Positions 49,758 to 61,519 of a stretch of 64,000 bases of DNA are shown one piece after another; within the stretch, counting starts at the first letter, position 1; each line of letters begins with the position of its first letter. The DNA is from Acetobacter sp. (GTDB lineage Bacteria; Pseudomonadota; Alphaproteobacteria; Acetobacterales; Acetobacteraceae), in contig NZ_JAKVME010000001.1 in assembly GCF_022483985.1 (NCBI RefSeq), positions 1,798,001 to 1,862,000 on the forward strand, read 5' to 3'. The notes under the pieces were generated by a model. The model did no database searches and was not told the DNA's origin. It was given only the letters and a program-made list of their open reading frames with translations. The translations under genes were made by a program, and so were the position numbers.

Positions 49758-51479
49758 TCATATAGTTGGAAAGATAAACGGCAGATGACTGCGGATACTT
49801 TTTGCCCTTTCACGGCGGTAACACGGGTTCGAATCCCGTACGGGACGCCACTCCCGTCCAAAACTGCGAACTTTTGGGTTCAGTTTAGGACGGTCTGAGA
49901 CGAGCTGGTTCATCAGCCTGTCTTTTCTTCCAAAAATGCGGATTTCCCTGTCATCGACCTCTATGCGATCGACGATCGCGCGGAGATATTCCTTGCGCAT
50001 GGCGACGGGACCATCGGCCAGCTTCGTCCGCAGGTCACAAGAGAAGCGTTCGATCATTTCGTCGGTAATGGCCGGCACGACCATCGCCGGGGCTTCTGCC
50101 ATCGCGCAGAGACGGCTGGCCTCATCCCGCCGGGCTTTGAGTGCATCAAGTCGTTCCTTGAGCATGGGATCGGTGACATCGACAACGCCGTTTTCGATAG
50201 CCGCGTACATTCTCTGCAACTTCTGCTCGGCTTCACGGGACGCGTTACGCAGGCTCTCCTGACGGACGGCATCACGATTCTGGTTGGCGGCATAGTGTGC
50301 CAGAAGCGCCTCCAGAATCACGCCAAGCCTGTCCTTCGTGAGCAGACGGGTGGCGAGATGCTCCATAACCAGCGTATCGAGCAGATCCATCCGGATGCTC
50401 CGTCCCTTGCAGGCCGTCTTTCCCTGCCGGGCCTGCGTCGCGCAGGTATAATAGCGATAACGACCGTATTTCCCTGTCCGCAACGTCATCCCGCCGCCAC
50501 AGGTGGCGCAGACTGCCAGCCCCGTCAGCAGACATGGACCATTGACGATCCGGGGTGCCGTCACACGCGGTGCGTTCTGTTTCAGACGCTGCTGCACCTC
50601 CAGAAACTCACTGCGGGGAATAATGACAGGAGCATCCATGGTGATCACGTCATCCGACGCTTTCTTCCGTCCCGTTTTCGCTTCGACCACGTTGAACGCA
50701 TGCGTGCCCGCATAGGTCTCGCGCGTCAGCACGTCATGAATGAATTTGCAGGAAAACCGCGAGCCGGTTTGAGTGCGGTATCCTTTTGCATTGAGGTGGC
50801 TGACGATCGCCTTGATGCCGAGCCCGCCGGACTGTCCGTCTCCATCACGGTAGAGCCCGAAGATGAGCCTGACCGTCTCCGCCTGAATGGGGTCGATCTC
50901 CAGCTTCTTCTTGACTTTCTGCCCACGACGCTCCGCTTCTACCGTGCGATAGCCGAAGGGCGGGCGGGAGCCGTTCCAGAACCCCTGCCGGGCGTTCTCG
51001 TTCATCGCGCGCAGTGTATGCTTGGCATTTTCACGGGACTGATATTCATCGAACAGCGCCAAGATCTGACGGATCATGGTGCCAGAAGAATCATTTTCCA
51101 GTTCCTGCGTGATCGAGACGAGCCTGATCTCCTGCTTCGCAAGACGTCTGACGTTGAACTCCAGATCAAAGTGATTCCGGAAAAAACGGCTGAAAGAATG
51201 CACAACGACAACATCGAAACGCCTTGGTTTTTCTGAGGCCACTTCCATCAGTTTCTGAAATTCCGGTCTCCTGTCATCTGTTGCCGAGGCTCCCGGCTCG
51301 ATAAAGACTTCAGCGACCTCCCAGCCTTTCGCGGCACAATAGGCTTCAGTCTGGCGCTGCTGATCGGGAATTGACAGGTCGTGCTCGGCCTGCCGCCCTG
51401 TTGAGACGCGCAGATAAAGGGCTGCGCGCAGGGACGGCAGTGGCCGGAGGGGGCTCGAAGCAAGGGGCAAGGATGTCAT
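49758..51479 (-). CDS. Large serine recombinase reading through a tRNA-Glu fragment
   Basis: 573 residues. Catalytic domain with Ser in LYLRVSTGRQAEHD and SRFFRNHFDLEFNVRRL. The recombinase domain is followed by a zinc ribbon (CATCGGGMTLRTGK, then YTCATQ and ACKGRSIR) and a coiled coil (about 420-470). GAGG precedes the ATG at 51479. The last about 30 residues (WRPVRDSNPCYRRERAK) are the translation of the complementary strand of a tRNA 3' half, so the gene spans an attachment site. It should integrate and excise the element to its right. Confidence 0.94.
   Translation of the reverse strand: MTSLPLASSPLRPLPSLRAALYLRVSTGRQAEHDLSIPDQQRQTEAYCAAKGWEVAEVFIEPGASATDDRRPEFQKLMEVASEKPRRFDVVVVHSFSRFFRNHFDLEFNVRRLAKQEIRLVSITQELENDSSGTMIRQILALFDEYQSRENAKHTLRAMNENARQGFWNGSRPPFGYRTVEAERRGQKVKKKLEIDPIQAETVRLIFGLYRDGDGQSGGLGIKAIVSHLNAKGYRTQTGSRFSCKFIHDVLTRETYAGTHAFNVVEAKTGRKKASDDVITMDAPVIIPRSEFLEVQQRLKQNAPRVTAPRIVNGPCLLTGLAVCATCGGGMTLRTGKYGRYRYYTCATQARQGKTACKGRSIRMDLLDTLVMEHLATRLLTKDRLGVILEALLAHYAANQNRDAVRQESLRNASREAEQKLQRMYAAIENGVVDVTDPMLKERLDALKARRDEASRLCAMAEAPAMVVPAITDEMIERFSCDLRTKLADGPVAMRKEYLRAIVDRIEVDDREIRIFGRKDRLMNQLVSDRPKLNPKVRSFGREWRPVRDSNPCYRRERAKSIRSHLPFIFPTI
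49804..49850 (+). repeat. tRNA-Glu(TTC) 3' half, putative attachment site
   Basis: The 47 nt contain the anticodon loop CTTTCAC (anticodon TTC), variable loop, T-arm ACGGG-TTCGAAT-CCCGT, acceptor ACGGGAC, G and CCA. The 5' half is absent to the left, so it is not a functional tRNA gene. It lies within the 3' end of the recombinase gene. Confidence 0.88.
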
Positions 51480-51656: not shown

Positions 51657-51887
51657 TCATGAGCGCGTATCCACAACCGGAGTGCCGATAGTCTTCTGCC
51701 TGAAAGTAATGGATCTCTGAATGTGATTATTAATACTTTCAGTTACTATAAAACGCGATCTGCCTATTTTTATCGTGACTATCCTGCCTAATGCAGCAAG
51801 TCTGTATGCTGTTTCACGTGAAAATCCGAATAATTCAGCAGTCTTACCAACGCCAATTACTTCCGAGAAATTGAATATTTCCTGCAT
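51657..51887 (-). CDS. Small HTH (excisionase-like) DNA-binding protein
   Basis: 76 residues from the ATG at 51887. The HTH is FSEVIGVGKTAELFGFSRET, followed by AYRLAALGRIVTIKIGRSRF, the wing pattern of excisionase and MerR-like helix-turn-helix proteins. The open frame continues upstream to 52028, so the true start is uncertain; no clear RBS is seen. A 19-bp hairpin overlaps this ATG. It lies 178 bp upstream of the recombinase and is a plausible directionality factor. Confidence 0.75.
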   Translation of the reverse strand: MQEIFNFSEVIGVGKTAELFGFSRETAYRLAALGRIVTIKIGRSRFIVTESINNHIQRSITFRQKTIGTPVVDTRS

Positions 51888-51931
51888 CGATGCTGCTTTC
51901 AACTCGCACTTCGTTGAAAGCAGCATCGATG
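51885..51931. promoter_or_regulatory. Perfect 19-bp hairpin across the excisionase start
   Basis: 51885-51903 and 51913-51931 are perfect inverted complements around a 9-base loop. The ATG at 51887 forms the foot of the stem. In mRNA the stem would hide the translation start unless opened. Confidence 0.8.
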
Positions 51932-52191
51932 AGGGCACGGGAAACAAAAACTGCAATTTCCGTTGCATTTTTCGGATCGAAACGAGAAATGACCCGGCAT
52001 GATGTGCACGGCCTGCCGTTCCGGTCACATCGCACTCGTATTTCCTGCGCTTATTCTACGAAAAACAGACTGGAGAGAGATTTGTCCGTTCCCGCGCCCG
52101 GTCGAACCGCTTTGCGGAAAAAACTGAATTCTGGCTTCAGGCCGCTCCAGGCACACGGCGGTTCCTGTGCAGCACGGGCTGCGTCAGGAGT

Positions 52192-53616
52192 TCATTCCGG
52201 CTTGCTATGCTGCGGTTCATAACCACCCAGTATGTTAAGAATTTTTTTGGGTAGTGGCGGAAGAACCAGAACAGGAGGTTTCATGCACGCAGGTTTTTCT
52301 TTTTCTCCCATGTCCGTTGCTACCGGGGAGACATCCGGGGAAGGTAGCTCGGGAGCAGCCATACCTACCTTGTCAGCGACGTCCTCTGTCCGATCACCAT
52401 ATATGTGTGGATCATAAGCGTAGCCATAGACCGGATCCCGCCGTGCAACAGACCCGTCATCCCGAATGACATCCAGTTCCTGCCCGATCACCTCTGGCAG
52501 AGAAAGATCACTCTGCAGCCACGCGATATCCGAAGCGCGGAGCAGAGACCGGCTTCCCGGGGCGGAAGGCTTTTTCAGACCCCAGTCCTGAAACCACAGC
52601 GCATAACCAAGCGTCGCCCGGGTCATACCTCCATCCCGCGGATCGTCCATGAAACTCCGGCCCGCTGTCAGATAGCCAGGATCAGTTTCACATGTCGGGC
52701 GGTAGGGAGGCCACACGTCGTCCGTGGGATGTATCGGCAGATAGGCACGGCAGGCCAGAACATCCATGGCGGCGAGAATATGCGCGACAGGTCTGAAATA
52801 TTTAATCATCTCCGCAAGCGTGCGTTTGCTGAGATGATTCTTTTCTCTCTCGTTGTTTTCCTGTTCCTCGCTGGCTTCCCGTTTTCTTTTTCTCAGCACG
52901 CGCGAAGGGGTGGAGGACTCCATCACATAATCATCAATAGTGCTGAACGGATCAATCCCCCTGTCCCCCGCCTGAAACACGTGCAGGCAACGCTCCCACG
53001 ATATGGGTATGTCGGGATGATGCAGCGACAGACGGGCGGCGATATGCACCGCCCGGCCAATGTAGCGGCAGCCCTCTTCAATGATGGTGGCCCGGATCGC
53101 ACTATATTCTGAAAAACCGTACCGTGGCATGGCCGTTTTCAGCCTCGTGCCGATATCGGCAATCCGCATCTGCAACCGCCAGAGATCATGCTCCTGATAG
53201 AGGTTCTGGAGTTCGAGAGCCCTGTCGAGACTGGAGAGCGGCTGCGTGTGGATCTGGTCGTGCAGTTTCCGCCTGACCGAGCCAAGATCATCCAGCGTCT
53301 GGAGGTCGAACGGCCTGAGAAAATCCAGGAACTGCCGCCCCGATGTGCGCTGGCAGGCCAGCAACTGCAGATGCTGCCGTTCCAGAAGCATCATTTCCAG
53401 ATGGAGACAGTCGTCCGTGACGGGAGATGACCTGTCACGGCTATCGGAGCACATGGTGCTGTGTTTCTGCACCCTGCTCCGGCGCCCGGCCGTAAAATCC
53501 CTTTCGGCAGCGACGAGAAGACCCTGAAGAGCAAAATTGTCGCTCTCGCACAGTCGATCGGAATCGAAGAAAACCGGAACTTTTTCTGACGTTATTCCCG
53601 CTTTTCTCGTGGACAT
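52192..53616 (-). CDS. Unknown 474-residue protein (orphan gene A)
   Basis: Start at the ATG 53616, which has GGAAGAG upstream; a start at 53652 is possible. Helical N-terminal half with a Cys/Arg-rich stretch, then a highly charged spacer (RVLRKRKREASEEQ, NNEREKNHL) and a Trp/Tyr/Pro-rich C-terminal half ending with a Pro-rich tail. No signal peptide, no membrane helix. I do not recognise the family. It is in a run of four minus-strand genes leading to the recombinase and may be a replication, partition or regulatory protein of the element. Confidence 0.75.
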   Translation of the reverse strand: MSTRKAGITSEKVPVFFDSDRLCESDNFALQGLLVAAERDFTAGRRSRVQKHSTMCSDSRDRSSPVTDDCLHLEMMLLERQHLQLLACQRTSGRQFLDFLRPFDLQTLDDLGSVRRKLHDQIHTQPLSSLDRALELQNLYQEHDLWRLQMRIADIGTRLKTAMPRYGFSEYSAIRATIIEEGCRYIGRAVHIAARLSLHHPDIPISWERCLHVFQAGDRGIDPFSTIDDYVMESSTPSRVLRKRKREASEEQENNEREKNHLSKRTLAEMIKYFRPVAHILAAMDVLACRAYLPIHPTDDVWPPYRPTCETDPGYLTAGRSFMDDPRDGGMTRATLGYALWFQDWGLKKPSAPGSRSLLRASDIAWLQSDLSLPEVIGQELDVIRDDGSVARRDPVYGYAYDPHIYGDRTEDVADKVGMAAPELPSPDVSPVATDMGEKEKPACMKPPVLVLPPLPKKILNILGGYEPQHSKPE

Positions 53617-53711
53617 AACTGATCTCTTCCGGTTAGCAGTTTTCAATGTCACGGCGTACAGTCAACGAGACTAAATTCCCGTGAAGTGACGTGATCGTCT
53701 GCTTGAGCCCA

Positions 53712-54929
53712 TTAATGTTCATGTATTTGACGCGCTTGCGCGGATGTCTCCTCCGTGCTCTGACTTTCCGTTTCATCATATCTGTAACCATTTCGAACCG
53801 GCATAATAAACTCGTGTAGTAGCTGTCGTATGTCTTCTTTCAGAAGATGGGAATCCTTACCATCTTCTGACACGCGCACAGGAAGTGGTTCCTCGCTAAA
53901 GACACGATGAAAATGTTCAAGAATATCAAAGTTATCCATCGCCATCTGCATAAGACCGAATAAATCTCTTTTTCCAAAATCTGAGAGGATCAGAAATCGT
54001 AAAAGAGCAGCTTCGTCCTTTTTCGGTCTCGCTATGCCGATTTCTGACATCTTGTCATGAGTTGTTATGCGATTTCGTTTCTTCCCAATTTTTCTTACGT
54101 CAATGATCATTTTTGAGAGACCATATCTCATCTTAACAAGTAGCGAGAGGCATTCTTCTATGCCCAATCTGTCAACAAGAGATTCAGTGATTCTGTAGTT
54201 TCCCAGATTCAATTCAATCTTCCGAAATATATCTAATAAATATATTTTTCGAGTGGCCATTTCCTCGGTAAACTGCGGGAAATATGCTTTTAGAGAGTTA
54301 CGCTGGTGCGGGGGATATAAAGGAGCGATACCAAACCCGTAGACTGACTGCTGCATTGTCCGATAGTGCCAGTTTGCAAAAAAGCCCATCCATAGAAATG
54401 CAGCAATGCGTAGTGGCGCCCGGACCGAAACTGGCTTCGGAGAACCGGTGAGATTTGTTTCGGACAGGCCGGGATGAATACTCATCGCACCAGCCAAACG
54501 TACTGTGGAAATAAAGCGAACTTCTGCTTCTGGCAAAGGGTATGTTTGCAGTATCTCCATAAATAGATTACGCGTACAGTCGATAAAACCAATCTTCTCC
54601 TGATTTCGTCTGCAAAAATCGAAAAAACGGGCCATCAGAATGTGCTGTGTTCGTGATGGGTCGAAAACAAACCCGATGTATCCATCAAATACGTTTGAAG
54701 ACGTATCTTCTCTGACAAGAGTATTCAAACCATCAAGTATACTCTCATCCATTTTAAGTATGGCACGCTTTGCTATTGCATCTATTGCCGCCTTCCCATC
54801 AGGACCCAGAATCTGTTTCGAGAGTATCTCGGCACGTCCAGGCATGATGCGGCCGCCAGTTTCGCGGATGAATTCGACAACTTCCACTGAACCAAGTCGC
54901 GCCTCATCGTACGGAGTGTGGTGTGCCAT
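53712..54929 (-). CDS. Unknown 405-residue protein (orphan gene B)
   Basis: Start at the ATG 54929 with GGAGG 10 bases upstream. Mostly helical. It contains GYIGFVFDPSRTQHILMARF, MSIHPGLSETNLTG and a basic region MIIDVRKIGKKRNRITTHDK. No known motif. Codon use is lower in GC than in the neighbouring chromosome, as is the whole segment to 55.6 kb. It is first in the leftward operon. The stretch 54930-55631 upstream is AT-rich and non-coding. Confidence 0.75.
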   Translation of the reverse strand: MAHHTPYDEARLGSVEVVEFIRETGGRIMPGRAEILSKQILGPDGKAAIDAIAKRAILKMDESILDGLNTLVREDTSSNVFDGYIGFVFDPSRTQHILMARFFDFCRRNQEKIGFIDCTRNLFMEILQTYPLPEAEVRFISTVRLAGAMSIHPGLSETNLTGSPKPVSVRAPLRIAAFLWMGFFANWHYRTMQQSVYGFGIAPLYPPHQRNSLKAYFPQFTEEMATRKIYLLDIFRKIELNLGNYRITESLVDRLGIEECLSLLVKMRYGLSKMIIDVRKIGKKRNRITTHDKMSEIGIARPKKDEAALLRFLILSDFGKRDLFGLMQMAMDNFDILEHFHRVFSEEPLPVRVSEDGKDSHLLKEDIRQLLHEFIMPVRNGYRYDETESQSTEETSAQARQIHEH

Positions 54930-55631
54930 GATCAACAAACCTCCATCAAAAGTATGCGTGGAAAATAATTACTTTTCCAAGCGGCTTTAAAAGAAAAAGA
55001 CCCACTCTAGACTACACAAATCAGGATTTTATCTGGCATCACAAGAAATGACTGCCTTCTTTTCCTGTCACTCTTTGCGTCGCTTTCCAGACCATAGCAC
55101 ACTCATTTTTCAGACATTTTCTATGTACTCTTGTTTTTTTTCCTCAAAATCAGGAAAAATTTCAGATAGGCATCATGTTGCAAACATTACTCACAAAATC
55201 GTGAATTAAATCCAGACTTTAAAAAATATCAAAATATAACAAGTCATTATGTCTTTTTGACTCAGGTAATTATCGTGACATTGCGGAGAAAAGTCGCAAA
55301 AAGACGCTCAATCTAATTAAAAAAAATTTACCATTTTTTTCTTGATTTGAGGCTCGGAATAATAATTTGACCTGACCGAGTCAAAGTCCTTTTGGAAATC
55401 AGTCATCGAACGCCAAATCGGCGTTACCGAGTACACGCATAGCATCGGAAAGCAGCCGATTCCCATCACGCCTCGTCAATGTGGAAGTTTTCCTCCGCGT
55501 TCAGTTCGGCGCTGTCAGTCTTTCCCAAAAAGACTCCCAGAGACATCCAGTGGCATGCGCTTTGGAAAAGACTGCCGTATTGTCATTATGAATCGATACA
55601 TTCGTTTTTTTCGCACTTGAGTCTGCAGCGT

Positions 55632-56160
55632 TGAATCAGATAGCGAACTGCTCCCAGAGCAAAATCGGCAGACAAATCCCGTTTTCTGCATCAAGACACC
55701 TGAAAAAAGGGCCTTCACAGCATACTATCTTTCCCGAAAACGGCGGCCTTCATAGTATGCACGAATCAGATTCCAATCTGCTCAGGAGACCAGATCGGCA
55801 GAAAACTCCTGTTTTCTGCACCAAGACACCTGAAAAAAGGGTCTTCGCAGCATACTGTCTTTCCCGACAACGGCTGTCTTCATAGTATGCACGAATCAGA
55901 TTCCAATCTGCTCAGGAGACCAGATCGGCAGAAAACTCCTGTTTTCTGCATCAAGACACCTGAAAAAAGGGTCTTCGCAGCATACTGTCTTTCCCGACAA
56001 CGGCTGTCTTCATAGTACGCACGAATCAGATTCCAATCTGCTCAGGAGACCAGATCGGCAGAAAACTCCTGTTTTCTGGACCTGCACCCCAGAAAAAAAG
56101 GGGCTTCCCAGCATACTGTATTCGCAGAAAATGGCTGTCTTCATAGTATGCACGAATCAC
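55632..56160. repeat. Array of about four 130-bp tandem repeats
   Basis: The anchor ATCGGCAGA begins at 55664, 55794, 55924 and 56054, an exact 130-bp period. Copies 2 and 3 differ by few bases; 1 and 4 are more diverged. Each unit carries an inverted repeat GCAGAAAAC-4-GTTTTCTGC (for example 55798-55819) and GCATACT...AGTATGC (55850-55856, 55884-55890). The array lies between divergent orphan operons, next to AT-rich DNA. A replication origin, partition site or operator array is possible. Confidence 0.92.
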
Positions 56161-56196
56161 TTATCCCGCCAAACAAACCAAAAACCGCAGAAAACC

Positions 56197-56219
56197 TAAC
56201 GATCCGTCCCAGATCGTTA
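56197..56219. promoter_or_regulatory. Inverted repeat near the 130-bp array
   Basis: TAACGATC (56197-56204) and GATCGTTA (56212-56219) around 7 bases; operator-like dyad between the array and the rightward genes. Confidence 0.5.
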
Positions 56220-56522
56220 CCCAATCGCACAAAACTACGACCATTGCCGCCATAAAACCCTCGACAATGGCCGCACAGGCCGGTCTGGAAACCCGCCCGC
56301 ATAAGAACCCTCGGATTCCTGCCCGGCCGGCCTACAGACCGTTTCTAAGACCTGTTTGCGGTATGATCGACGAACACATGCACCACAAAAACTCCAGAAC
56401 GGGTCAAATCTATCCCCGCAAGGGATTTAAGGCACGATACCGCATTTTGGTGCGCAGGGCGCACGCAAAACGCCGAAAAACGACGGTTTTCTGCCATTTT
56501 TCGCATGGTCCTTCGAACGTCG

Positions 56523-56574
56523 CCGGATGCGCGCCTGACGGCGCGACTTTGACCCCGTCAAAGTCTGCATCCGG
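56523..56574. other. Near-perfect three-way-junction sequence
   Basis: Three nested stems use almost every base: 8 bp (56523-56530 with 56567-56574), 5 bp (56531-56535 with 56540-56544, loop TGAC) and 9 bp (56545-56553 with 56557-56565, loop CCC). Only T56566 is unpaired at the junction. It lies 167 bp upstream of the first rightward gene, in a 580-bp region (56161-56740) with no convincing gene. It may be a structured leader RNA or a cruciform recognised by a protein. Confidence 0.75.
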
Positions 56575-56740
56575 GAAACCGGAAGACGAGGGCTGAGAGA
56601 AGATGGTCGGACAGAGAGACATCCCCGGTTCTGAGGGCTGGCGATGAAGGGACTGGTCCCTTCGTTCCCAGAGAGAAGGACGTGGCGTTTGGGCCTGTGT
56701 GCTCCCGCCGTGTCCTTCCTCGCCTTTCAGGACATGTTTC

Positions 56741-57505
56741 ATGACACGAATTTCGTCTTCCTTTTTCTCTCCTGCCTCGCCGGTCAGTGCGTTGCGCTCT
56801 GACGTGGGACAGCTCACGTCCCTTCGCCTGCGTCTGCTCAGCTGGTGGCCGGCCAGACCCATGACCGGCTTTGCCGAGGGCAGCCGCTTCGTGGTCGTGG
56901 TGCAGAATATCCTCTGGACCCCGCTCACCGTTTCTACTGTATGGGATTACGTCCGCACGATGGAGTTGCATCATGACGCCAACGGACGGCTGTGCTTCGA
57001 TGAACCGCTGGTCTTTGCCGAAGATGGCATGGACGCACCGAACGCCATCGCCGTCTTCAACTACCATTTTCTGCGGCGCTTCCTCGCGGAGGATGATCCG
57101 GCTCTGACCCTGCCGGGTCTGTGCCTGTATCGCGCGGCCGGGGAACTCTGGCCGCATCTAATGTTCCATACCCCGATGAGTCTGATCGTGCATGCCGCGT
57201 CCAGCGGGCGACTGGCGGGTCTCGTCCCTGAAGATCTTCTGGGACTGACCGACCCGCAGAGGGATCTGATGCTGTTTGACGCTCTGAGCCGGCAGATCAA
57301 CCCATCGGACCTGATCTGCCTGTCGGCCTCCACAGCGGTGGATGCTGCCCCTGTCATCAACGGTCTGGCTGTGGACCCACACTGGTTCAGCACGGCGTGC
57401 GCGCCCGGCTACAGCCTGCAGGCCGGCCTGGAACATCTCGGTGTGCTCGAATGTCCCGAAGAGGATGATCTACTGCCGTTCGATCTGTCCTTCCGGGGCC
57501 ACTGA
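56741..57505 (+). CDS. Unknown 254-residue protein (orphan gene C)
   Basis: Start at the ATG 56741 with AGGA upstream. Soluble protein, acidic overall, with LLSWWPARPMTGFAEGSRFV, NYHFLRRFLAEDDPALTLPG and LICLSASTAVDAAPVING. I do not recognise the family. It is the first of three rightward genes that end at the 58.8-kb terminator. Confidence 0.75.
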   Translation: MTRISSSFFSPASPVSALRSDVGQLTSLRLRLLSWWPARPMTGFAEGSRFVVVVQNILWTPLTVSTVWDYVRTMELHHDANGRLCFDEPLVFAEDGMDAPNAIAVFNYHFLRRFLAEDDPALTLPGLCLYRAAGELWPHLMFHTPMSLIVHAASSGRLAGLVPEDLLGLTDPQRDLMLFDALSRQINPSDLICLSASTAVDAAPVINGLAVDPHWFSTACAPGYSLQAGLEHLGVLECPEEDDLLPFDLSFRGH

Positions 57506-57643: not shown

Positions 57644-57877
57644 ATGTCTGCTGACCATTTCTCTCTGCCCCGCACTGGCCTCGACCGGCTGATTGATGTC
57701 TGGCTGCAGATGCACGACGTGCTGCTGCCCGCCCTGTGTGTCGCCCGCGATGACGGTCCGGACGACACGCTGCACTTTGGCCGCCCGCTGGAAGGCCATG
57801 TGCTGCTGCTCGGCGATCTCCTCGAAGATTTTGGCGAGACGCTTCAGGATGTCATGGACAGTCCCGCTTCGGCGTGA
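57644..57877 (+). CDS. Unknown 77-residue acidic protein
   Basis: ATG at 57644 with AAGGAT upstream. The sequence is helical and acidic: GLDRLIDVWLQMHDVLLPAL then GDLLEDFGETLQDVMD. The size and charge would suit a small regulator or anti-protein. The preceding 57506-57643 is non-coding. Function unknown. Confidence 0.65.
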   Translation: MSADHFSLPRTGLDRLIDVWLQMHDVLLPALCVARDDGPDDTLHFGRPLEGHVLLLGDLLEDFGETLQDVMDSPASA

Positions 57878-57995
57878 ATGCCGGCCTCTGCTCTGCCTCT
57901 TTCTGGTCGTCAGGCCATCCTCCTCAAACCCAGATCAACACTCTGCCATCAGACAGAAACCGTTCTGTCCGATGGCTCTGCACAGGATTTTCACC

Positions 57996-58769
57996 ATGCG
58001 TTCTCAGATTACACGCCACCAGACAGGCCGACATGGCGTATCCCGTGCCACCCGCCGTCTTCGCCACACCCGTCGTCTCTCGCCGTGGGATGCAACGGAC
58101 GAGGACCTGCAGTTCATGGCAGCACTCACCGAACGGCTGGGCGCACCGCCGGTCTCGAACATGATGCGTTATTGCGGCCCGGAAGCGCGGCATCTGGACC
58201 AGCTAGGCGAAAGCCTCGGCGACTGGCGGCGGATGCTCGAAGCACTCGCCCGGCGTTATCCGGATCTGCCGCAATCGGGACAGCGGGCGTCCGACGGCAC
58301 GATACTGGATTCTGCGCCCGAGCGCATCGTCTGGGAGACCCTCGTGCAGATGGTTCCCGATGAACTGGAGCTGTGCTGCCATCCCTGGCTGGAAGAAGGG
58401 CGTTATCTGCGCAGCGATTTCGGTCTCTGTGCACCGGACGATAACACCCCTCTGGTGTGCATCGAGGTGATGGGCATGCTGGGCTCCGACCGGATCTGCC
58501 GGGCGGACGTCGAGGAAGCCTCTCTGGACCGTCTGGCGAAGAAGGAAGACTGGTTCAGTCAGCCGGACCGTCCGCTGCTGCGGGTGATCTGGCTCGACAT
58601 GATGGCGCACCCGGACTGGCTGGAGGCAATCTGTTCAGAAGCCATCGAAGCGGCTGTCGCTCAGCTTGTCTGCAACGGGGAGGAACGTCGCACATCGGTG
58701 CCGGATCGTAGTGCACGATATGGGAAGCGACGTTCTCTTCCTGTTTCACGCTGGCGAACGCGTGAGTGA
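57996..58769 (+). CDS. Unknown protein with a possible PD-(D/E)XK nuclease-like core
   Basis: 257 residues from the ATG at 57996 (AGGA upstream; ATG 57972 is an alternative). An N-terminal basic tail precedes a helical part. The C-terminal half has the pattern E (SAPERIVWETLVQM), then RSDFGLCAPDDN, then LVCIEVMGMLGSD, then a helix and RVIWLDMMAHPDWL. D, then about 13 residues to IEVxG, resembles the metal-binding core of PD-(D/E)XK proteins such as DUF559, although the usual Lys is Met here. Function is therefore uncertain. Confidence 0.75.
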   Translation: MRSQITRHQTGRHGVSRATRRLRHTRRLSPWDATDEDLQFMAALTERLGAPPVSNMMRYCGPEARHLDQLGESLGDWRRMLEALARRYPDLPQSGQRASDGTILDSAPERIVWETLVQMVPDELELCCHPWLEEGRYLRSDFGLCAPDDNTPLVCIEVMGMLGSDRICRADVEEASLDRLAKKEDWFSQPDRPLLRVIWLDMMAHPDWLEAICSEAIEAAVAQLVCNGEERRTSVPDRSARYGKRRSLPVSRWRTRE

Positions 58770-60829: not shown

Positions 60830-61519
60830 TTACGGCCGGGGCACGCCGCCGGTCCACACAACTTCACCCAGCAGCCGGAAGCAGCCCAGCTGGTTTTCTT
60901 CGACATCCTGCGGCGGGTAGCGGTGGTTGTCGGCTATGACCCGTACGCCACCGCCCAGACGGGGATCGAGACGGCGGATCAGCAGCGTGCCGCTGCTTTC
61001 CAGCGCATAGAGGGCGCTGGCCGTGATGGTCGTCACGCTACGGTCGACGATCACCAGATCGCCCGAGGCCAGCGTGGGCTCCATCGCATCGCCCTCGCTG
61101 GTCATCAGGCAGAGGGCCGAGAGATCACGGGGGATGGCGCTCTGCAGCCAGTCACGACTGATCCGCAGGCCGTCCTCGTGATTGTCGTGCCAGGGAATGA
61201 CAATCTGTCGGGTGATGCTGGCTGCTCCGTCCGGACTGTCAGTTCCCGGACCGGCACCGTTGCCAAAGGCCAGCCAGTCCAGGGAGACGCCACAGACGCG
61301 GGCCAGTGAGGCGATGGCGGAGAACTTCATCTCGCCACCATTCATATAATCCCGCAGGGTCGTGTAGGGGACGCCGGCGGCCTTTGCGGCGTGGGTGATG
61401 CCGATGCTCTGGGCGGCTTCACGGAGACGCTCGCCACGCTCGCGCATCAGGCGGATCTGTTCATCCATGAGCTTGCGCTTCTGTCTGCGTTTGCGGGCCA
61501 CGCCTGTTGTCCTCATCAC
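60830..61519 (-). CDS. Phage-type repressor with a catalytically dead S24 (LexA/CI) domain
   Basis: 229 residues. Basic N-terminus, then an HTH at about 35-75 (AAQSIGITHAAKAAGVPYTT, LRDYMNGGEM). The C-terminal S24 fold is at about 105-225 (TSEGDAMEPTLASGDLVIVD, NHRYPPQDVEENQL). In active members the motif is GDSM and a Lys follows in the next strand. Here Ser is replaced by Ala145 and the Lys position is Arg182 (LLIRRLDP), so self-cleavage should be lost. It would then be a repressor not inactivated by RecA. It probably controls the small-gene run downstream. Confidence 0.9.
   Translation of the reverse strand: MMRTTGVARKRRQKRKLMDEQIRLMRERGERLREAAQSIGITHAAKAAGVPYTTLRDYMNGGEMKFSAIASLARVCGVSLDWLAFGNGAGPGTDSPDGAASITRQIVIPWHDNHEDGLRISRDWLQSAIPRDLSALCLMTSEGDAMEPTLASGDLVIVDRSVTTITASALYALESSGTLLIRRLDPRLGGGVRVIADNHRYPPQDVEENQLGCFRLLGEVVWTGGVPRP

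Follow-up and report, generated by a model that had tools for sequence, protein, structure and literature searches.

Genes and features of the locus

The window analysed here, a stretch of 64,000 nucleotides, is part of contig C1 (2.64 Mb) of a 3.71-Mb Acetobacter genome. As originally predicted, a tandem array of 130-bp units lies in the intergenic region between two divergent reading frames, 53712-54938 on the minus strand and 56699/56741-57505 on the plus strand, and the presence of AT-rich DNA adjoining the array was also supported. The genes around the array are the following.

49758-51479, minus strand: large serine recombinase (integrase)
51657-52028, minus strand: HTH protein, excisionase-like, with a score below curated cut-offs
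52192-53652, minus strand: 486-aa protein, mostly helical, with no assigned function; its family is spread in Acetobacteraceae elements
53712-54938, minus strand: 408-aa protein with no family match, only sometimes near the array
56741-57505, plus strand: gene with no assigned function, encoding 254 aa from 56741 or 268 aa from a GTG at 56699
57972-58769, plus strand: conserved part of ORF 57693-58769, with a predicted restriction-endonuclease-like (Vsr/PD-(D/E)XK type) fold
60830-61519, minus strand: CI-like repressor with an S24 peptidase domain, conserved in the same module

Structure of the 130-bp repeats

The array and its dyads, none of which is assigned to a strand, were mapped as follows.

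55633-56160: tandem array, period 130 bp, four units with a partial unit at the left
55664-55793: unit 1
55794-55923: unit 2
55924-56053: unit 3
56054-56183: unit 4, degenerate after about 56160
55798-55819: first dyad of unit 2; also at 55668-55689, 55928-55949 and 56058-56079
55897-55910: second dyad of unit 2, read from the sequence; also at 55767-55780 and 56027-56040

TRF reported the array at 55664-56159 with a period of 130, 3.8 copies, a 92% match, no indels and a score of 801; the remaining two TRF rows of the 64-kb window scored only 70 and 58. The four anchors given in the original prediction (55664, 55794, 55924 and 56054) are correct. To call the repeats exact, as that prediction did, was too strong given the 92% match: identity is 128/130 between units 2 and 3 and 120/130 between unit 1 and either of them, and the last unit is degenerate, with a one-base insertion and no repeat pattern beyond about 56160. 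The partial unit lies upstream of 55664.

Each unit had been described as containing two dyads. Both are real in units 1 to 3, but unit 4 is without the second. The first dyad has the form GCAGAAAAC-TCCT-GTTTTCTGC and the second is CAGATT-CC-AATCTG; a longer arm pair, GCATACT...AGTATGC, is also present in the units. The right arm of the first dyad is lost in the units from other genomes.

A coding repeat was considered and rejected, as the period of 130 is not divisible by 3 and the sole ORF of at least 80 aa across the units encodes 84 aa. A further candidate role for the units is as small-RNA genes in tandem or as RNA antitoxin repeats. Folded as RNA, the complete array scores better than shuffled sequences (z -7.75), as tandem inverted repeats would, but for single units there is no gain over shuffles (z -0.94 and -1.44), a search of Rfam gave no family, and over 14 units from four genomes the consensus energy was -1.7 kcal/mol with 0/8 pairs compensatory. 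Among the neighbours there was no PADLOC match to a toxin partner, and the locus does not have the make-up of a type III toxin-antitoxin system. Since there is no RNA covariation in the units, we favour a role for the array as DNA and regard an RNA function as highly improbable.

Distribution of the array and its linkage to a gene module

The genome of the window has a single copy of the array. Matches at E 1e-4 or better were found in 4/49 Acetobacter genomes (G000, G414, G316 and G420); in a family sample, 2/397 genomes matched. In G414 there are 6.6 copies of a 130-bp unit, with a best match that is 82% identical (L037:8956-9807), and related arrays are present in G316 and G420, where the contigs stop within the repeats. 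Inspection by eye showed that a contig of G400 ends in a strongly diverged unit and that G362 has kept one degenerate unit. An array in this slot would account for the draft assemblies of several Acetobacter genomes breaking at that place. Over 14 units from G000, G414, G316 and G420, the blocks GGCAGA, AAAAAGGG, CTTC and GAATC are invariant. The array is a real, conserved feature.

A link to plasmids had been suggested, but blastn with the array against a plasmid collection (72,556 records) and a phage collection (50,697 records) gave no match. The array is not specific to one strain, since it recurs in other Acetobacter genomes together with the gene at 56741. This gene, whose product has a weak likeness to a 220-aa family, is linked to all 130-bp-family arrays that have sequence on that side. 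The suggested link to the flanking genes therefore stands for the gene at 56741 but not for the 408-aa gene at 53712, of which no relative was found in G414, G316 or G420; a pattern search of the genome contigs for relatives of the 408-aa protein also found none. In G333 and G362 the 408-aa family is broken or truncated (L042:8814-9480 and L038:8708-9592), with no library match.

The left module of G414, G316 and G420 differs from that of the window, with a recombinase that is 24-25% identical, a 102-aa protein and a 460-aa protein that is a relative of the 486-aa protein (32% identity). To the right of the array, colinearity with G414 and other genomes extends to 61905 and takes in the 268-aa gene and the module that follows. 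It is thus the right-hand module that the array accompanies from element to element. Members of the 486/460 family are present in 13/49 Acetobacter genomes and in 10/397 family genomes, covering 5/102 genera. The 486-aa family had no Pfam, PHROGs, NCBIfam or clear PDB relatives, and the model of the 486-aa protein (mean pLDDT 70.1) gave no confident structural match.

The arrays lie in integrative elements with serine recombinases, that of the window being encoded at 49758-51479. In G414 and G316 the recombinase gene runs at its 3′ end into a tRNA-Met gene of the opposite strand (L037:11890-13590 and L003:40-1740), and this is probably where integration takes place; a search of 48.5 kb in G414 gave no 16-base repeat of the tRNA-Met end.

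The repeats might instead form an operator array, at which cooperative binding of a regulator controls the divergent promoters with no origin function. The position between divergent genes and the dyads within the units would suit such a role, as would the CI-like S24 repressor gene in the same module. However, the left-side gene changes between elements while the array stays, and units of 130 bp are long for operators. In addition, the region 54900-56800 contains 0 sigma-70-like promoters against 1.4 expected, a count from which alphaproteobacterial promoters may escape. We consider an operator array unlikely.

A conserved two-hairpin site beside the arrays

By reading the spacers we found a core, GGCACGATAC (at 56431 in the window), followed by a hairpin. 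The complete site has three parts.

56431-56441, minus strand: conserved core, a putative nicking region, reading GGTATCGTGCC on the minus strand and GGCACGATACC on the plus strand
56442-56473, minus strand: proximal hairpin, from per-locus folds
56474-56503, minus strand: distal hairpin, resembling the first dyad of the repeats

On the minus strand, the site thus consists of two hairpins followed by GGTATCGTGCC, and it lies about 0.3-0.8 kb from the arrays. The pattern GGCACGATACYG-N2-3-TTTTGGYGC was found at 19 places in 15/49 Acetobacter genomes, against 0 matches for a reversed-pattern control. It was found in 7/397 family genomes, which added one place in another genus and gave 20 places in all; the pattern was derived from some of these 20 loci, and its presence in those is not independent evidence. 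A 60-base query from the site gave no match at E ≤1 against the plasmids. A hit to a Gluconobacter plasmid (H14) was rejected as an instance of the site, being a 28-base match with E 0.2.

All 10 bases of the core are invariant in 13/13 aligned instances, whereas the flanks are otherwise divergent. The hairpin sequences differ between lineages, and all families have two hairpins adjoining the core. The fold z of the site was between -2.38 and -5.71 in 11/12 loci and -1.93 in the other. When a single dot-bracket structure was forced on the site alignment (A5), 52.0% of cells were paired and 0 pairs were changed on both sides; the hairpins are out of register in this alignment through indels, and their conservation rests on the per-locus folds and not on covariation. 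The two-hairpin site (56431-56503), which the original prediction had missed, is more strongly conserved than the repeats.

Inverted repeats beside a short conserved core are the structure expected of an oriT, a structure that does not in itself prove one. The TATCGTG/CC of the core presumably resembles known nic sites.

Unrelated tandem arrays in one slot

We compared the slot beside the site between loci, counting as testable those with at least 1.5 kb of sequence on the array side; 13/20 places qualified. Seven of these 13 have a TRF array in the slot (score at least 200), compared with 0/318 control tiles of 1.5 kb away from the sites (score at least 200 and period at least 20). The slot arrays are as follows.

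Window and L037: 130 bp
L124 and L126: 72/134 bp
L098: 90/120 bp
L093: 59 bp
L130: 58 bp

These five array families are mutually unrelated in sequence, and all are in the same slot. In an all-against-all blastn comparison (E ≤1e-4), loci were joined within each array family; the only hits of more than 50 bases between families joined L093 or L094 with L098 and L094 with L096, and all of these lay outside the arrays. Unrelated tandem arrays recurring beside an invariant site are an unusual pattern. The distal hairpin repeats the dyad of the units in the 130-bp family, and only 1/300 and 0/300 shuffles did as well; in the other four array families the repeat dyad was not found again at the site.

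The six testable site loci without a TRF array are L042, L060, L061, L094, L096 and L128. The upstream stretch of L060 contains transposase-like ORFs, as read from the translations, and is mostly shared with L061. The two loci are copies of the right-hand module in G362; they are 98.6% identical, and on the array side each breaks off just ahead of the site. A 37-base repeat occurs twice at L096, with a spacing of 134 bp. The 59-bp unit is present in 3.7 copies in G295 (L093:8438-8657) and in one copy in G272 (L094, near 8900), in a region that is otherwise near-identical, which is a recent change in copy number. As a separate observation, a second element of this kind in G414 adjoins Cas3 and Cse1 genes of CRISPR type I-E (L098:518-4958).

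Arrays of this kind could arise by locus-driven tandem duplication with no function of their own, set off by breakage or nicking of the site or by slippage within the AT-rich spacer. Such a process would explain why arrays unrelated in sequence recur in one place, why some site loci have no array, and why the 59-bp unit has 3.7 copies in one genome and one in its near-identical counterpart. Against it, the blocks of the 130-bp unit are conserved over G000, G414, G316 and G420, which is more than recent duplication needs, and the units of several families contain dyads. On balance, we judge duplication without function to be about as unlikely as an operator array.

Relaxase genes in sister elements

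In four Acetobacteraceae integrative elements a TrwC-type (MobF) relaxase gene of about 1,300 codons lies directly upstream of the 486/460-family gene, with a serine recombinase nearby.

L089:4254-8162: TrwC relaxase gene
L091:3690-7712: TrwC relaxase gene
L092:5248-9306: TrwC relaxase gene
L100:3011-6910: TrwC relaxase gene

At L091 and L092 the TrwC gene is between the 486/460-family gene and the nuclease-fold gene. The same slot in array-bearing elements is a non-coding spacer, to which the 408-aa gene is added in the window. The two-hairpin site is absent from all four TrwC elements, and tblastn found TrwC in 0/19 site-bearing loci (all but L040). We also scanned 70 relaxase loci of the genus (PF03432 and PF03389 hits, 341,616 bases) for the core only; within these two classes there was no exact core, and cores with at most one mismatch numbered 29 against 20 expected.

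A dyad, ACCAAGGGTGCCTTGGT, was seen in the spacer of TrwC elements, near 4040 in L092 and at L100:1-20, where the contig starts within the dyad. It might be the oriT of the TrwC elements.

A nuclease-fold protein encoded beside the site

A model of the conserved part of ORF 57693-58769 had a mean pLDDT of 83.0. VIA-align matched the model to the catalytic domain of I-Bth0305I (Z 10.7, rmsd 2.9, 97 aligned) and to NGO0050 (Z 9.9, rmsd 2.7, 93 aligned); TnsA and VRR_NUC domains scored a Z of about 7. Foldseek alone gave no significant match, with no E below 0.06. The acidic residues E117, D149 and E165 are invariant in 11/11 rows. On the strength of the model, the product belongs to the Vsr/PD-(D/E)XK-type nuclease fold and is a putative nuclease.

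The nuclease-fold gene adjoins 18/20 sites; at L127 there is none in 8 kb, and L042 ends 0.4 kb past the site. A relative of the gene is present on plasmid NZ_MZ127818.1, with core and array absent from the 18.6 kb read. In viral contigs the family was found in one contig of 29,529 bases, the same size as C112 of G272. Restriction-type folds occur in MobC-family relaxases. The nuclease-fold protein may itself be a nicking enzyme that has escaped recognition.

A possible origin region

The array probably belongs to a site from which movement or copying of the element starts. Our tentative reading, made from sequence comparison, is that it may be a cluster of protein-binding sites within the cis-acting origin of an integrative element that has no relaxase of its own. 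We arrive at an origin region because the slot is fixed, the arrays in it are unrelated, the hairpin site is invariant and sister elements have a relaxase gene in that position. A transfer origin (oriT) is the more likely function and replication of the excised circle comes second; we prefer transfer because none of the loci seen combines the site with the relaxase gene. Since no relaxase locus carrying the site was found, the oriT is a step that we infer. The original prediction had proposed an origin, a partition centromere or a cooperative operator; an origin or cooperative binding fits best, while the centromere is without positive evidence.

Several results count against an origin region: no exact core was found in the 70 PF03432 and PF03389 relaxase loci, six of the 13 testable site loci have no TRF array, the single structure forced on the site alignment gave no compensatory pairs, and four array families show no copy of their repeat dyad at the site.

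Were the region instead a replication origin of the excised element, the repeats would be long iterons bound by an initiator of the element, for example the 486-aa protein, with the site used for priming or nicking. The regular direct repeats adjoin AT-rich DNA, the elements are integrative, so that an excised circle may need replication, and the 486/460 family adjoins the slot in many elements. However, the array persists with 486- and 460-type proteins that are only about 32% identical, and the array-bearing L124 and L126 have no 486/460-family gene in the sequence read. Searches of Pfam, PHROGs and NCBIfam found no Rep family among the neighbours, several of which have no assigned function. 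The DnaA box TTWTNCACA was not found in 54900-56800 or in the G414, L093 and L130 regions, with one or two in four other loci; not all iteron-controlled origins need a DnaA box. This is a rather unlikely explanation, although we rank it ahead of the operator and duplication alternatives.

If the region is a transfer origin, the element would be excised by the serine recombinase and nicked by an enzyme working at GGTATCGTGCC, the core next to the proximal hairpin (56431-56473 with the hairpin). Cooperative binding of a protein to the repeat dyads would bend or open the DNA and bring in the nicking enzyme. That enzyme may be a relaxase supplied by another element in the same cell or, as a bolder proposal, the product of the neighbouring nuclease-fold gene. 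Excision, binding, nicking and transfer are all events that we infer. It is also conceivable, at a level well below the alternatives of replication, regulation and duplication, that these elements swapped their relaxase gene for a bipartite transfer origin, made of a universal two-hairpin core and, in a fixed slot, a fast-evolving, lineage-specific array, and processed by the adjoining Vsr-fold nuclease and not a classical HUH relaxase. The arrays would then diversify as identity tags that settle which related elements interfere with one another.

Comparison with known systems

Iteron plasmid origins have regular direct repeats adjoining AT-rich DNA. The array differs from them in its 130-bp units with internal dyads, and no DnaA box or recognised Rep protein accompanies it. 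The oriT regions of R388, F and pAD1 have a hairpin beside a short conserved core, with accessory-protein repeats some hundred bases off. Here the repeats are far longer and are wholly different between sister elements, while the core is invariant.

Salmonella genomic island 1 (SGI1) is a chromosomal island thought to be helper-dependent, with a cis-acting origin. The element described here is also chromosomal, with a putative cis-acting origin. According to one published account (PMC6414798), SGI1 has mobilization proteins of its own.

Titles and the opening lines of abstracts yielded no published description of relaxase-less mobilizable elements in acetic acid bacteria. If our reading is true, GGCACGATAC with its two hairpins would provide a sequence handle for such elements. 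A close parallel in kind is with oriT-bearing elements without a relaxase (iOriT), which are a recognised class (PMC11389934). As in those elements, there is an integrase, no relaxase or transfer genes were found in the stretch read, a candidate origin lies in a non-coding region, and sister elements have a relaxase. Unlike them, a long tandem array accompanies the site here, and transfer is a proposal made from the sequence.
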